A stretch of 33,813 nucleotides of DNA from an uncultured Prevotella sp. (GCA_946614175.1 CAMOGP010000003.1:1-33813), one strand, 5' to 3'. Shown: positions 5,987 through 20,575, counted from the first letter of the stretch. A program made the numbers and translations. Notes: generated from the letters alone by a model not told the origin.

Positions 5987-6018
5987 CAAAGTTAACACTT
6001 ATTTTGCGAATGACCAAA
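5987..6018 (-). promoter_or_regulatory. Bacteroidota-type promoter for kinase-tkt-rpiB
   Basis: On the minus strand a TTTG (6015-6018) is followed after 20 bp by TAACTTTG (5987-5994), matching the -33/-7 pattern of the phylum. The predicted start lies about 25 bp upstream of the ATG at 5957. It also supports the shorter kinase start. Confidence 0.65.
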
Positions 6019-7665: not shown

Positions 7666-7699
7666 TTTGGTGGTATCAATTTTTCTTTGTACCTTTGCA
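7666..7699 (+). promoter_or_regulatory. ileS promoter
   Basis: TTTG (7666-7669), a 20-bp spacer, then TACCTTTG (7690-7697), a textbook -33/-7 pair about 30 bp before the ileS ATG. The 24 bp at 7676-7699 recur exactly in front of valS. Confidence 0.75.
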
Positions 7700-15032: not shown

Positions 15033-15741
15033 GTTTTTCTATGTACCTGATGCTGCTAAGCAAACAGAGTTGCCTGATGATGAAGCTGTTCATGCCGTCA
15101 GAGTGTTGCGTATGCAGGCTGGTGATGAGATGATGCTGATGGACGGACAGGGTTTTTTCTACCGTGCTGCTGTTACTCTCACTACGCAGAAACGCTGCCG
15201 GTATGAGGTCATCGAGGCGCTACCTCAGGAGCATCAATGGCAGGGCTGCATCCATTTGGCTATCGCACCTACGAAACTGATGGATAGAATTGAGTGGATG
15301 GCAGAGAAGGTTACAGAGGTAGGATTGGATAAGTTGTCATTTCTGGACTGTGCCTTTTCTGAACGTAAGACGTTGAAACTGCCTCGTATCGAGAAAATCG
15401 TTGTGTCGGCATTAAAACAGAGTCGTAAGGCTTATATGCCAGTATTGTCAGAGATGACTCCGTATAAGTCTTTTATTCAACAGCACACTGCAGGACGACG
15501 CTATATCGCACATTGCTATGACGAGGTGCCTCGTGTGAATCTGTTTGATGAGTTAAGAACTGCCAAGGTGGATGAAGAAACCTTGGTGATGATTGGTCCA
15601 GAGGGTGATTTTTCTATTGATGAAGTACGTATGGCTGTTGATGCAGGCTTTATTTCCGTTGATTTAGGAAAAAGCCGTCTGCGTACAGAAACTGCGGGGC
15701 TTTCGGCTGTGATGATGATGCAGCTTGCAAAACAATGCTGA
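15019..15741 (+). CDS. rsmE: 16S rRNA (uracil(1498)-N3)-methyltransferase
   Basis: SAM-dependent SPOUT enzyme that methylates U1498 of 16S rRNA in the 30S subunit. It has 240 residues, close to the family norm. An N-terminal PUA-like domain (HAVRVLRMQAGDEMMLMDGQG) is followed by the knotted methyltransferase domain with KLMDRIEWMAEKVTEVG, the SRKAYMPVL block, VMIGPEGDFSIDEV and the knot segment DLGKSRLRTETAG. It starts 14 bp before the end of the DUF151 gene. All conserved blocks are present. Confidence 0.95.
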   Translation: MKEIRFFYVPDAAKQTELPDDEAVHAVRVLRMQAGDEMMLMDGQGFFYRAAVTLTTQKRCRYEVIEALPQEHQWQGCIHLAIAPTKLMDRIEWMAEKVTEVGLDKLSFLDCAFSERKTLKLPRIEKIVVSALKQSRKAYMPVLSEMTPYKSFIQQHTAGRRYIAHCYDEVPRVNLFDELRTAKVDEETLVMIGPEGDFSIDEVRMAVDAGFISVDLGKSRLRTETAGLSAVMMMQLAKQC

Positions 15742-15769
15742 TGTTATAATCGACAAAAATATTGTTAAT

Positions 15770-16222
15770 ATGAAAAGGATATTGATATTTGTGCTTCTTG
15801 TTTGTTCTCATCTTTCATTGCAAGCCCAAGGTGATAGCCTGAATATCCGTGAGGCATTTAAGCAGATGCCAGACAGTTTGTTGCCTTATCTGACGCAGAA
15901 CAATAGGCTGGATATGATGGATTTCATGGATGCAAAGATGAAAGCCGCTGTTGACAATCTGTTAGGTGGTGAGAGTGAAATGCTGTTTCTCTCTGATGAC
16001 TCCCTATGTATCAAGATGAATGAGTCGATGAATATGGAACTGAAAATGCTCCGTGACGAAATTGAGCCTATTATCCTTATGAAGCGCACTTATAAAATAT
16101 CAGAACGCCAAAAGGAAATCCTGATTGGCAGGTATTCATCCTCTTGGCGTTCTATATCAGAAATCTCCGTGGTATCAACGCTTCTGAAGCGTGACGAAGA
16201 CGTGATTGAGAAATCTTTTTAA
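15770..16222 (+). CDS. DUF3256-family secreted protein
   Basis: A 150-residue protein from the ATG at 15770 (MKRILIFVLLV); the track start at 15725 adds 15 residues that would bury the signal peptide. The N-terminal hydrophobic segment ends near LSLQAQG, giving a cleavable signal peptide of about 20 residues. The mature part (AFKQMPDSLLPYLTQNNRLDMMDFMDAKMKA) fits DUF3256, a Bacteroidota family of unknown role. It is the last gene of the ileS run and ends only 9 bp from the convergent stop of the Spy-like gene, with no hairpin between. Confidence 0.8.
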   Translation: MKRILIFVLLVCSHLSLQAQGDSLNIREAFKQMPDSLLPYLTQNNRLDMMDFMDAKMKAAVDNLLGGESEMLFLSDDSLCIKMNESMNMELKMLRDEIEPIILMKRTYKISERQKEILIGRYSSSWRSISEISVVSTLLKRDEDVIEKSF

Positions 16223-16231
16223 TCTTATATT

Positions 16232-16726
16232 CTATTTCTGATGACTTTGTTGGCCGTGTCTTTGCTGTTGTGGCATATGCGGCCAATTGAACTGGGGCTT
16301 GTTGCGATTAAATCTTCTAAACACATGGCGATAGAATTTGTCCTCAGCTTTCAGTGCAGCATATACTTTTGATGCTGGTAATAAATCAAGAAAACGCTCG
16401 TGGTATGTTTTCTGAATGCGTTTCATCTCTAAATCGATATCATCACGTTCCTTGATAGCCTTCATGCAAGAAACCTCATCGTTGGGCATTATTGTTACCA
16501 ACTTGCGCTGGCGCTCATACAGCCCGCGTTGTTTGTTCTGCATTTCCCTGTATACAGGAAAGAATTTTGCAGCTTCTTGTGGTGATAATTTTGCCTCGTT
16601 GATGATGAAGAGATGCAGTTCAGCATCAAATTTCTCAGGCGAAAATTTTAACTCTTCCTGAGGCTCATTTGCATTGATCGTCAGGGTTGTGATAATCAGA
16701 ATTAAAAATATCAATCCTTTTTTCAT
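16232..16726 (-). CDS. Spy/CpxP-like periplasmic protein (sensor linked to ECF sigma factor)
   Basis: A 164-residue protein with a signal peptide (residues 1-19, ending INANE). The mature region is highly charged and helical: LHLFIINEAKLSPQEAAKF, YREMQNKQRGLYERQRKL, IQKTYHERFLDLLPASKV. The pattern resembles Spy/CpxP proteins, whose LTxxQ-like segments form a cradle that binds unfolded periplasmic proteins. The tail is rich in Gln, His and Asn (residues 140-164). It lies 15 bp after a membrane anti-sigma gene and two genes after an ECF sigma factor, so a link to envelope-stress signalling is likely. Chaperone or metal-sensor activity is inference. Confidence 0.7.
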   Translation of the reverse strand: MKKGLIFLILIITTLTINANEPQEELKFSPEKFDAELHLFIINEAKLSPQEAAKFFPVYREMQNKQRGLYERQRKLVTIMPNDEVSCMKAIKERDDIDLEMKRIQKTYHERFLDLLPASKVYAALKAEDKFYRHVFRRFNRNKPQFNWPHMPQQQRHGQQSHQK

Positions 16727-16741
16727 AGTATTTCTCTCTCC

Positions 16742-17101
16742 TTACATATCAGCCAATAGGCTAGCATAAATTTCATTGTTGTCGAACATGGCATAGTCAG
16801 TGGCTTCGTCAATATACGAGTCATTGTATTCTGTTGCATGTTGAGAGAAATTGCCTTTCATCGTCTCGTTTGTCTGCTTGTCCAGATTCTGGTAAATTAC
16901 CACACCAAAAACGGCTATGCAGACGCATGCAGCAGCATAGAGAAGCGGCCTAAGTCGCTTGATTAATGCGGGCTTCTGTTCCTTTTGTGCTGGTATCTTA
17001 TTCATGATATCGTCCGCCAACTGCTCAAAGTATCCTTCGGGCACTGTAAACGGGTTTTTATTACCCATTTTGTTTCTAATGTAATCCTCTTCGTAGTTCA
17101 T
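16742..17101 (-). CDS. Probable anti-sigma factor, single-pass membrane protein
   Basis: A 119-residue protein with a cytoplasmic N-terminus carrying NPFTVPEGYFEQL (residues 16-28), a segment seen in many Bacteroidota proteins encoded after ECF sigma factors. One membrane helix spans about 53-70 (LLYAAACVCIAVFGVVIY), followed by an acidic periplasmic tail. No HxxxCxxC zinc anti-sigma motif is present. It follows the sigma gene by 45 bp and precedes the Spy-like gene by 15 bp. The anti-sigma role rests on gene order and topology, not on a recognised catalytic or binding motif. Confidence 0.65.
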   Translation of the reverse strand: MNYEEDYIRNKMGNKNPFTVPEGYFEQLADDIMNKIPAQKEQKPALIKRLRPLLYAAACVCIAVFGVVIYQNLDKQTNETMKGNFSQHATEYNDSYIDEATDYAMFDNNEIYASLLADM

Positions 17102-17146
17102 AGTTTCGTGTCCTTTTTCTTTTTGACGTATAAAATTAATTATGGT

Positions 17147-17698
17147 TTAATCGAATTGTTTAAAAAACTCTGTGATTTTTTTGACGGCTATATGATAGGA
17201 GGCTTTTAAGGCTCCTTCTGATGTGCCGAGTGTCTTGCTGATGTCGCTGTATTTCATGTCATCGTAGTAGCGAAGCATAAATACTGTACGCTGAACTTCT
17301 GGGAGTGATGCGATAGCTTGTTGCAACTGTGCTTCTTTCTCGTCACCGTCAAAATATTCGTCAGCCATTAATTGGTTGACAATTCCTGTCTCTATATCAT
17401 CGGTACTTAGCGTCTGTCGATTCTTTTGCTTGCGCAGGAAATCGAGCGCCTCATTGATGGCTATTCGTGACAGCCACGTAATCAGTTTTGAATCACCGTG
17501 AAAACTATCAAGTGAACTCCATGCTTTAATGAATGCGTTCTGTAGCACGTCATTACTGTCTTCATGTGTGATGACAAGACGACGTACCTGCCAGTATAGC
17601 TGCTCGCTATATTGGCGCACCATTACTTCAAACCCCTTGCGTCGTGTGGCAGGGTCTTGAAGGAGCAACTTCAGTTGGTTGTCATCTGTTGTTGGCAT
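17147..17698 (-). CDS. ECF-type RNA polymerase sigma factor
   Basis: A 183-residue sigma-70 factor of the extracytoplasmic function class with only regions 2 and 4. Region 2 spans about residues 24-92 (HEDSNDVLQNAFIKAWSSL, ITWLSRIAINEALDFLRK), and region 4 about 125-178 (SLPEVQRTVFMLRYYDDM, YSDISKTLGTSEGALKASY). It begins 36 bp after the L,D-transpeptidase stop on the same strand, with no clear promoter between. Its order before an anti-sigma and a Spy-like gene suggests control by envelope state. Its own target promoters cannot be named from this window. Confidence 0.94.
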   Translation of the reverse strand: MPTTDDNQLKLLLQDPATRRKGFEVMVRQYSEQLYWQVRRLVITHEDSNDVLQNAFIKAWSSLDSFHGDSKLITWLSRIAINEALDFLRKQKNRQTLSTDDIETGIVNQLMADEYFDGDEKEAQLQQAIASLPEVQRTVFMLRYYDDMKYSDISKTLGTSEGALKASYHIAVKKITEFFKQFD

Positions 17699-17734
17699 TG
17701 TATCTGGTGTTCGTGCTTTAGTGATTAAGACGCC

Positions 17735-19318
17735 TTAGGGCATAAAAGGTTTAATTTGCCGAGCTATTTGTTTGTCATATTCATAGCGATCTGGCCATAT
17801 TTCCCATTTCCCCGTCTCCGGGTTGGGGTAGAGGGTATAGTAGTCAATAACTACTGGAATGTGGGGATTGACACTGATATAAGACATTTTAATACCTTTC
17901 AGTGGTTCCTCATCGTCTGCATGTTCGCGTTGATAGTTTTTTCCTTTATCGCTTTCAGGACTCATATCGATGTTCATCCGAATCTTGTCGAGTGTCCACT
18001 CCTGAGCGTCGGGCATCAGGTATTTCACTAGGTCGAATGGCCGTTGTATGCGTATACATCCATGAGAAAGCGTGCGTTTGTTATAGGTGAATGTATTCTT
18101 GTTGTTTGTGTCATGCAGATAGACGTCAAACTGGTTGTTAAAGCGAAAAATGATGCGCCCCAACGAGTTGCGTGGCCCACTATGTTGGGTCACGCGGTAT
18201 ACTCCACTGCGTAGTTGGGTGCTCGTGATTTTTTGGGGTGAAATAGTGTCACCGGAGCTTCTATGTACGATAAAGTAGTCGTTGCGTGCAAAGTAGGCCG
18301 AATCGCCAGCATGTGGACTTACCTCATCGCGCAGGATGCTGTTTGGGATATTCCATTCGGGATTCAGTTGTATCAGTCGTATCTTACTAGCTAGCAAGGG
18401 TGTTTTTGTATTCCATGCTCCACAGCAAATTCGCATGGAGAATATACTGTCAGGTCGAATAGCCCATAATTGTTGTGATGGGATGTTGACGAAGACATGA
18501 TTCTGCGTATGGTCAGTCTTTTGTATATGACGCCAGCGCAGACGTTCCATGTTGCAGAGTATCCGCAGTCGTCCGTCTGTCGTTGAATCCGTAGCTAAGC
18601 GTTCTTTTAACTGTTTATATATGGGATGCAGATTTTCCAGACCGGCTAGGTAAAGAGATGGATTCTCATCGTTAGCATGCGCTAATGCCTGTTTGGTGAA
18701 GTCCTTGTCAGGTTGCTCTATGTCAATATCATAAATGATGCGATATCCCCCTTCCTTACGCTTGTCGAGTCTGTTGAACACCTTATTGGGATTCATAAAT
18801 CCATAACGTTGTCCAAGGGCGTAACGCATATATGCTTTACTGAGGTGTAACTCCAATTCTGCCATTGTCTTCGTGACACTGGTATTCGTAGAGTCAAAGT
18901 CGAGTGTGCGGAAATGCTTTAACTCTTTCAGTATTTCTGTTGTATAAAAAGCTTTTGGTGTAAAACCTATCTTCTGGGCTTCATTCTCCAGAAAGTGGGC
19001 TGTCGTCTCTGCTTTTTGGATGAAATCTTCGTCCTTGCCGTCTAACCATACCCAGTTATTTCCTTCATGATAATAATCTCTGACTAACTTGTCTGCTTCT
19101 AGTGTGTCTGAATGACTAGAAATAAATAGCCCAAGACACTGTTGGGCATCTTGAGCGCTGTCTGCAAGTAGTTGCAGTCTAAGTTTTGCGGCCATGTCTT
19201 CCTGCGACATGAATATGTCGTTTTTGCAGGCCGTGATATTAAATAAAAGAGCGCAAGTTAAGAAACTTAACGCAATGTGATTTTTCGTACAGTTTTTCCT
19301 ACTTTCAGAATGTAGCAT
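17735..19318 (-). CDS. L,D-transpeptidase, YcbB/LdtD-like lipoprotein
   Basis: A 527-residue envelope enzyme. The N-terminus (HIALSFLTCALLFNITAC) gives a lipobox with Cys31, so it is probably a membrane-anchored lipoprotein. Residues 75-260 form the helical scaffold region of YcbB-type enzymes (WVWLDGKDEDF, EAQKIGFTPKAFY, GQRYGFMNP). Residues 275-435 are the YkuD catalytic domain with SHGCIRIQRP, catalytic Cys near 421. Such enzymes form 3-3 peptidoglycan cross-links. The start overlaps the preceding CTD gene by 52 bp; no later start keeps the signal peptide. Followed after 36 bp by the sigma factor. Substrate use is inferred from family. Confidence 0.9.
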   Translation of the reverse strand: MLHSESRKNCTKNHIALSFLTCALLFNITACKNDIFMSQEDMAAKLRLQLLADSAQDAQQCLGLFISSHSDTLEADKLVRDYYHEGNNWVWLDGKDEDFIQKAETTAHFLENEAQKIGFTPKAFYTTEILKELKHFRTLDFDSTNTSVTKTMAELELHLSKAYMRYALGQRYGFMNPNKVFNRLDKRKEGGYRIIYDIDIEQPDKDFTKQALAHANDENPSLYLAGLENLHPIYKQLKERLATDSTTDGRLRILCNMERLRWRHIQKTDHTQNHVFVNIPSQQLWAIRPDSIFSMRICCGAWNTKTPLLASKIRLIQLNPEWNIPNSILRDEVSPHAGDSAYFARNDYFIVHRSSGDTISPQKITSTQLRSGVYRVTQHSGPRNSLGRIIFRFNNQFDVYLHDTNNKNTFTYNKRTLSHGCIRIQRPFDLVKYLMPDAQEWTLDKIRMNIDMSPESDKGKNYQREHADDEEPLKGIKMSYISVNPHIPVVIDYYTLYPNPETGKWEIWPDRYEYDKQIARQIKPFMP

Positions 19319-19581
19319 CCTTTGGGCAGATTTAGTTCTACGCGTTGTGCAGGTCCTTCAATTTTGTATGATGCCACTGCTTTTCCTGTGAGAGAAACAA
19401 TCTCAAGCACCATACCATTTCCTCCTTGCACGGTGACGGCATTCTTATCTAGTTTTATTGTAGGCGTGGTTTCTTCTACTTGCTCTGCCACTCCCATCTC
19501 AGCAATCATTGTCATTGCCTGCGCAGGAATTGTGCATGCAAGTAATGCCGCTGTTGTGATTATGAGTAGTCTTTTTTGCAT
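19267..19581 (-). CDS. Small secreted protein consisting of a T9SS-like C-terminal domain
   Basis: A 104-residue protein with a signal peptide (residues 1-22, cut after IPAQA), a short linker, and a beta domain at about 42-104: VLEIVSLTGKAVASYKI, VELNLPKGCYILKVGKTVRKITLR. This fits the type A C-terminal sorting domain of the type IX secretion system (the 'G.Y.vkv' pattern), yet there is no passenger protein ahead of it. It has its own promoter and leads the ldt-sigma-anti-sigma-Spy run, overlapping ldt by 52 bp. It may be a secreted beta-sandwich peptide or a remnant of a larger protein. The CTD match is by eye. Confidence 0.7.
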   Translation of the reverse strand: MQKRLLIITTAALLACTIPAQAMTMIAEMGVAEQVEETTPTIKLDKNAVTVQGGNGMVLEIVSLTGKAVASYKIEGPAQRVELNLPKGCYILKVGKTVRKITLR

Positions 19582-19603: not shown

Positions 19604-19635
19604 CAAAGATAAAAAAATATTTTGAACTTTCCAAA
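19604..19635 (-). promoter_or_regulatory. Promoter of the CTD-ldt-sigma operon
   Basis: Minus strand TTTG (19632-19635), a 20-bp spacer, then TATCTTTG (19604-19611), located 23 bp upstream of the CTD-protein ATG. This matches the housekeeping Bacteroidota pattern, so basal transcription need not depend on the ECF sigma factor. Confidence 0.65.
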
Positions 19636-19657: not shown

Positions 19658-20575
19658 TTATACGTCAAAGACCTTCATCTCGTCCGTCAGGTAGGTGCTT
19701 GGGAATACTTCTTGTGCTTCTTTTAATAGTATTGTCTCATCATTATAGCGTGCACTATAATGACCTAGTAATAGTTTTCCAACCTGTGCATCACGTGCCA
19801 CCATTGCTGCCTGTTGGGCCGTAGAGTGAAAATACTTTTCAGCACCATCTTTCTTGTCTTGGGCGTATGTACTTTCGTGATACAATGTGCTGACTCCTTT
19901 TACTATCTTATGTAGTTCGGGCATGTAACGCGTATCCGAGCAGTAGGCGTACGAACGTGGCGCATCTGCTGGAGTCACTAGTTTCTCGTGGGGGATAACG
20001 GTACCGTCTGGCAGTGTGTAACCCTGTCCGGCTTTGATGTTGTTAATCTGTGAGACGGGAATATCGTAGGTGTCAATCATCTCGCGTCGGATATGCGGGA
20101 GAGACGGCTTTTCACGAAACAGATAGCCGGCGCAAGGCATCCTGTGATTAAGGGGAATCGTTTCTACGGTGAGTGAACGGTCTTCATAGATCACTTGCTG
20201 CTTCTTGGTATCGACACCATGAAACTCCACCTTATACCCGATGTCATAGTTGAAGAACATGTTCAGTTGGGCTTCCAACATCGGTCTGAGCTCCTCTGGC
20301 GCATGGATATGTAGTGTTGCCATGCGTCCTAAAAGTCCAAAGGTGCTGATAATGCCAATAAGTCCAAAGCAATGATCGCCATGAAGGTGTGTGATAAATA
20401 TATGTCCTAATTTCTCAAATGATAAACCCGAGCGCCTCAGTTGTACCTGTGCCCCCTCTCCGCAATCTACCATGAAAAGTTTTCCTCTGCATTCTACGAC
20501 CTGCATGGACGACATATGTCGCAATGTTGGCAGGGCGCTTCCGCATCCTAATATATGTACACGAAACGGTTCCAT
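19658..20575 (-). CDS. rnz: Ribonuclease Z
   Basis: Zinc-dependent endonuclease that trims tRNA 3' ends. At 305 residues it is the short bacterial form. Metallo-beta-lactamase features are ILGCGSALPTLRH, FMVDCGEGAQVQLRR, the metal motif HLHGDH (residues 63-68), the exosite-region segment LHIHAPEE, AYCSDTRY, TLYHESTY and LLLGHYSARY. It starts 6 bp after the stop of the upstream lipoprotein gene, itself 12 bp after mazG, so the three form one transcript. Ends 76 bp before the CTD gene. Confidence 0.95.
   Translation of the reverse strand: MEPFRVHILGCGSALPTLRHMSSMQVVECRGKLFMVDCGEGAQVQLRRSGLSFEKLGHIFITHLHGDHCFGLIGIISTFGLLGRMATLHIHAPEELRPMLEAQLNMFFNYDIGYKVEFHGVDTKKQQVIYEDRSLTVETIPLNHRMPCAGYLFREKPSLPHIRREMIDTYDIPVSQINNIKAGQGYTLPDGTVIPHEKLVTPADAPRSYAYCSDTRYMPELHKIVKGVSTLYHESTYAQDKKDGAEKYFHSTAQQAAMVARDAQVGKLLLGHYSARYNDETILLKEAQEVFPSTYLTDEMKVFDV

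Follow-up and report, generated by a model that had tools for sequence, protein, structure and literature searches.

A predicted self-regulating envelope-stress sigma circuit beside a separately promoted L,D-transpeptidase gene in an uncultured Prevotella

The locus described here occupies positions 16232–19581 of a DNA of 33,813 nt from an uncultured Prevotella sp. (GCA_946614175.1 CAMOGP010000003.1:1-33813). That whole stretch is called the window. Five open reading frames (ORFs) of 104, 527, 183, 119 and 164 aa lie in the locus on the minus strand. In order, they encode a secreted protein with a domain like the C-terminal domain (CTD) of type IX secretion system (T9SS) cargo (ctd), an L,D-transpeptidase (ldt), an extracytoplasmic function (ECF) sigma factor, a membrane protein that is probably its anti-sigma factor (asf), and a Spy-like periplasmic protein (spy). 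The frames of ctd and ldt overlap by 52 nt, and the later gaps are 36, 45 and 15 nt (Table 1). An earlier note, made from this DNA alone, had proposed that these genes form one envelope-stress module. The five same-strand genes, with their overlap and short gaps, are all where it placed them. However, the promoter elements of this locus and its relatives indicate two transcriptional blocks, ctd-ldt and sigma-asf-spy, rather than one module.

Table 1. Genes and promoter elements of the locus, in window coordinates
Feature	Position	Strand	Basis
rnz (ribonuclease Z): conserved upstream neighbour in the family, outside the circuit	19658..20575	-	profile match, locus comparison
Housekeeping promoter TTTG-N20-TATCTTTG, for ctd-ldt	19604..19635	-	pattern scan and relatives
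ctd, 104 aa: signal peptide, linker and one T9SS type-A-like domain; secreted	19267..19581	-	ORF, profile match, predicted fold
ldt, 527 aa: YcbB/LdtD-type L,D-transpeptidase lipoprotein (scaffold and YkuD, SHGCIR)	17735..19318	-	Pfam, PDB profile, motif
P1: candidate ECF-type promoter TTAAACCTTT-N13-GTCTTA before sigma, overlapping the ldt stop codon	17726..17754	-	comparative motif
ECF sigma factor, 183 aa	17147..17698	-	Pfam
P2: candidate ECF-type promoter TTAAACC-N16-GTCAAA before asf-spy, overlapping the sigma stop codon	17122..17150	-	comparative motif
asf, 119 aa: probable anti-sigma factor crossing the membrane once; cytoplasmic part with NPFxVPEGYF motif	16742..17101	-	position, topology
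spy, 164 aa: Spy-like/CnrX-like periplasmic four-helix protein	16232..16726	-	predicted structure

The products of the five genes

The sigma factor matches Pfam Sigma70_r2 (PF04542) and Sigma70_r4_2 (PF08281), both above cut-off. It has region 2 and region 4 only, as in the ECF class. Asf has one predicted transmembrane segment with a positive N side, and exactly one such segment is predicted in 143 of 171 asf proteins. Profile searches gave no match of Asf above cut-off to known anti-sigma models, and only chance-level matches of Asf and Spy to solved structures. We regard Asf as a probable anti-sigma factor because of its position, its topology, the logic of the promoters described below, and a result in Phocaeicola vulgatus, where the sigma and spy genes of a comparable sigma-antisigma-spy operon are more strongly expressed once its anti-sigma gene is deleted (PMC13114119). 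Spy is predicted to fold as a four-helix hairpin (predicted local distance difference test, pLDDT, 89). A DUF3256 gene on the plus strand (window 15725-16222) converges on the end of spy and stops 9 nt from it.

The L,D-transpeptidase has the scaffold and YkuD domains in Pfam, and its catalytic SHGC motif fits the S/T-H-G-C criterion of the YcbB/LdtD type. It is related to E. coli YcbB/LdtD (PDB 6ntw, E 1e-25). The assembled host genome has no other YkuD match; this is a minimum count, as is the list of host targets given below, because the assembly is 71.8% complete. The tie of the locus to 3-3 cross-linking, as read from the sequence, is positional only.

The ctd product falls just under the cut-off of the T9SS type-A model TIGR04183 (22.9 bits against 23), and 49 of 50 ctd family members match that model at E<=0.01. 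Its predicted fold has seven strands and is closest to the CTD of RgpB. No cargo domain was found in front of the CTD-like domain. The secretion component SprA is present in the host genome, and across genomes ctd follows the presence of SprA (46/67 versus 3/29, P=1e-7), an association confounded by ancestry. All P values here are indicative, because there is phylogenetic structure in the genome samples. Nonetheless, three SprA-negative genomes have ctd as well, and so do Bacteroides nordii and B. cellulosilyticus. A role for ctd solely in the T9SS is weakened both by that confounding and by these exceptions.

Conservation of gene order

The loci were compared in a family set of 101 genomes with 99 loci, counting sigma homologues at E<=1e-25. 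The sigma factor is present in 95 of the 101. In all 93 sigma loci inspected, asf and spy are close by, mostly in the order sigma-asf-spy, and because the three co-occur in every one of these loci, the arrangement is not a matter of chance. This upholds the part of the earlier note that saw an envelope-stress circuit of ECF sigma, membrane anti-sigma and Spy-like protein. In named genomes, the three-gene core is found in Bacteroides, Phocaeicola, Parabacteroides, Dysgonomonas and Muribaculaceae, and nearly all of them carry asf and spy with sigma. At the level of the order, sigma is found in 81 of 119 genomes. The three-gene core is almost universal within the family and also common in the order Bacteroidales. 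One genus, represented by five loci, has the order asf-spy-sigma, and a single genome carries a second tandem copy of asf-spy after the first.

The genes upstream of this core are less constant. In most family loci rnz precedes the sigma locus, and in about half ctd sits between the two. The ldt gene is found in 24 of the 101 genomes; the 77 that are without it mostly keep sigma. Scarce as it is overall, ldt adjoins sigma in 17 of those 24 genomes, and it is mostly placed between ctd and sigma. The adjacency recurs across several genera, including B. xylanisolvens, B. congonensis and B. nordii. In the order sample of 119 genomes, ldt is never beside sigma outside the family. Therefore, the conservation that the earlier note called for is found for the sigma-asf-spy core, and is lacking for the five-gene module, since ldt is usually missing and two genomes keep rnz-ctd-ldt where sigma was not found.

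Promoter elements and predicted targets

Comparison of the DNA before sigma and before asf yielded an ECF-type element, TTAAACCTTT-N13-[GA]TC[TA]WA. Counts of it before the locus genes allow at most one mismatch, and the chance level was taken from shuffled sequence. It precedes asf in 81/92 family, 78/79 named and 24/27 order loci, and sigma itself in 23/94, 17/80 and 7/28, with 0.0 expected by chance in both positions. It was found before ctd in 0 of 49 loci and before ldt in 0 of 25, and there is none before spy. The window carries two copies, P1 at the ldt stop codon and P2 between sigma and asf. The −35 element of P1 is spelled by ldt codons near the end of the gene, I-K-P-F. The earlier note held that positive feedback by the sigma factor would need a promoter beyond the one heading the unit, and P1 and P2 are two candidates for it. 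From the conserved motif before asf and sigma, we predict that the sigma factor drives its own operon.

Some further matches to the element are set apart from these. In some genomes of the order sample, matches lie about 300–440 nt before sigma, within a conserved gene that resembles transketolase in its translated end (no domain search was run). They were discounted, and the recurrence of the element sequence in this gene, seen in five loci, is probably a coding coincidence. There is also another sigma-asf-spy family, which shares about 40% identity with the one studied and is without the TTAAACC promoter; the element is missing from all 16 paralogous sigma operons that were compared. Two paralogous sigma-asf operons have two consecutive Spy-like genes, followed in one of them by genes for FGE-sulfatase-domain proteins.

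The promoter that the earlier note saw heading the unit is present and is of the housekeeping type, TTTG/TAnnTTTG. The same promoter stands before ctd in 41 of 54 relatives, compared with 0.1 in shuffled sequence, and before ldt in 1 of 30. Three such sites were found in the window where 0.13 were expected; the other two, both perfect, are at 5987-6018 (-) and 7666-7697 (+). A scan with the sigma-70 consensus was uninformative for this phylum (16 found versus 11.6 expected). Between ctd and sigma, in loci without ldt, an intrinsic terminator is found in 14 of 32 cases, where 3.8 are expected. Because of this promoter evidence, we take ctd-ldt to be a separate unit that would be transcribed constitutively. 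The earlier note's placement of ctd and ldt within the sigma circuit, and of 3-3 cross-linking as its output, is not supported, since the DNA does not carry the promoter expected of a target. We read ldt, by its promoter, as a neighbour of the sigma factor and not a direct target.

It is a further question whether ctd-ldt is a mere neighbour, belonging with rnz or to nothing else and functionally unconnected with the sigma circuit, even by read-through. Besides its separate promoter, ctd-ldt stays at rnz in the two genomes where sigma was not found, ldt moves with ctd to other places in two more, and ldt and sigma are unlinked outside the family. Against this, several genera have ldt next to sigma, as do named Bacteroides species such as B. 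xylanisolvens and B. nordii, and 21 ldt-sigma intervals, of about 24 nt, show no terminator. Complete independence has a real chance of being right, if a somewhat less than even one. Because there is no terminator between them, read-through from ldt into sigma is possible, and it may set the basal sigma level.

Away from the locus, 49 family genomes had exact matches to the element and 24 had matches to a reversed pattern. In the family sample, 90% of element sites are outside same-strand genes versus 19% of control sites (inside genes, 10% versus 81%). The 43 downstream proteins include 13 with CarboxypepD_reg, 5 of them with a recognisable outer-membrane beta-barrel, as well as 7 Spy-type DUF4890 proteins and 3 HlyD-type adaptors. 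In the order sample, the element occurs 41 times versus 6 for the control. Its off-locus copies are found only in genomes that have the sigma factor (18/81 versus 0/38 without it, P=7e-4), and the genes downstream again include beta-barrel and LTXXQ proteins. In the host genome, an exact element precedes a CarboxypepD_reg protein on C13, and one-mismatch elements precede a DUF4890 gene on C59 and an OmpH gene on C76. These last two are weak individually because the one-mismatch scan found 18 sites versus 14 for the control. Another exact element in the host genome, with GTCATA (C103:7544-7572), precedes a gene for a 121-aa secreted protein without a Pfam match. The element, like the list of targets, is predicted from sequence.

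A proposed self-limiting circuit and its relatives

We propose, with a probability of roughly 0.75, that the locus holds an autoregulated, self-limiting envelope-folding stress circuit, sigma-asf-spy, with ctd-ldt transcribed separately. In the unstressed cell, the short cytoplasmic N-terminus of Asf would tether the sigma factor at the inner membrane. Folding stress in the envelope, the presumed signal, would free it. The freed sigma factor would recognise the ECF-type element and transcribe asf-spy from P2 and its own gene from P1. The inhibitor and Spy would then increase together and reset the response. Away from the locus, the same sigma factor would also activate an OmpH/Skp gene and those of Spy-type chaperones and outer-membrane beta-barrels.

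Several observations weigh against this reading. The element lies directly before sigma in only 23 of the 94 family loci, so that not all of them would have a self-activating sigma. The role of Asf is assigned by position, topology and analogy. The fold matches of Spy are weak, with a best E of 0.23, although CnrX and Spy are among the best matches of known structure. The window protein has no Pfam match and is without LTXXQ (PF07813), which is likewise missing among the 25 families listed for 58 Spy orthologues. Finally, some element matches precede unrelated genes, such as those for a carboxylesterase and a rhamnosidase.

The Spy-like protein might instead act as CnrX is placed in the CnrH-CnrY-CnrX system of Cupriavidus metallidurans (PMC7689651), docking on Asf and triggering release of sigma rather than dampening the response as a chaperone. 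The two systems have the same gene set and a similar architecture of ECF sigma, membrane anti-sigma and periplasmic helical hairpin, apparently of one fold class. Many of the top structural matches are CnrX chains, with probabilities up to 0.98 and a TM-score of about 0.59, but the best E is 0.26, and no sequence similarity was detectable in the PDB profile search. The near-invariant positions of the 58 orthologues contain no His and no internal Met, although no residue-by-residue alignment to CnrX was made. A CnrX-type metal-sensing role was rejected, since no conserved His/Glu/Met metal site was found there. Also, spy comes after an ECF promoter, and copies of the motif stand before Spy-type genes elsewhere, as would suit an output of the circuit. 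The targets predicted here are envelope folding genes, whereas that of CnrH is a metal efflux pump operon. We consider sensing of this kind unlikely.

That all five genes make one stress operon, with the transpeptidase and the CTD protein as outputs of the sigma factor, is very improbable: the common direction, short gaps, frequent placement of ldt directly before sigma with no terminator between, and control of ldtD by Cpx in E. coli (PMC4791840) speak for it, and the ECF promoter absent before ctd and ldt, the conserved housekeeping promoter before ctd, the ctd-sigma terminators where ldt is missing, and the many genomes that keep sigma without ldt speak against it.

Operons of sigma, anti-sigma and Spy are already known from P. 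vulgatus, as cirY-cirZ-spy and a second operon (Elmekki et al. 2026, PMC13114119). They resemble the locus in the order of sigma, membrane anti-sigma and co-transcribed Spy. The cirYZ-spy system, also of Bacteroidales, activates itself and responds to envelope stress, and both are predicted for the Prevotella circuit. CirY acts most strongly on its own operon and on two peptidoglycan genes, whereas the targets predicted here are outer-membrane proteins and chaperones. As P. vulgatus has two such operons, the likeness is one of kind and not of assigned orthology (M0N98_01574-75). Nor could cirYZ be identified by its neighbours among at least two paralogous systems, where GH20, CBM9 and FGE-sulfatase genes were seen but no glucosaminidase-LysM gene. 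A literature search found no paper describing the promoter or the predicted targets of this locus.

Few Bacteroidota ECF sigma factors have a recognised class I anti-sigma nearby in a published survey (PMC7406223). EcfO-Reo of Bacteroides fragilis and P. vulgatus is likewise a Bacteroidales ECF sigma factor with an adjacent anti-sigma for envelope stress. However, Reo is described as extending through all compartments to the cell surface, with a regulon that includes NigD proteins, whereas Asf is 119 aa with one transmembrane segment. In E. coli, sigma-E and RseA form a self-limiting ECF circuit acting on Skp (OmpH) and outer-membrane genes. The predicted circuit is similar in its self-limitation and in having Skp (OmpH) and outer-membrane genes among its putative targets; it differs in that Asf is short and unlike the known anti-sigma models. 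The Cpx system of E. coli, with CpxP/Spy and LdtD, also joins a Spy-type protein to a YcbB-type L,D-transpeptidase (PMC4791840), but it is a two-component system, and ldt here has no stress promoter.

Responses like sigma-E or Cpx are poorly defined in Bacteroidota. We suggest tentatively, and with the odds somewhat against it, that this sigma factor is their general equivalent across the order Bacteroidales, with its own −35/−10 signature and control of Spy-type chaperones, Skp/OmpH and beta-barrels. In some lineages, ctd-ldt would then have been added upstream, and a wall-remodelling gene transcribed from a housekeeping promoter would feed the basal level of sigma. Since Cpx drives ldtD in E. 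coli (PMC4791840), it was reasonable to think of ldt as an output. The lesson is that a wall-crosslinking gene touching a stress sigma factor is not thereby part of its response. With a near-universal locus and a readable promoter signature, it may be possible to predict the targets of this sigma factor from the sequences of hundreds of gut and oral species.

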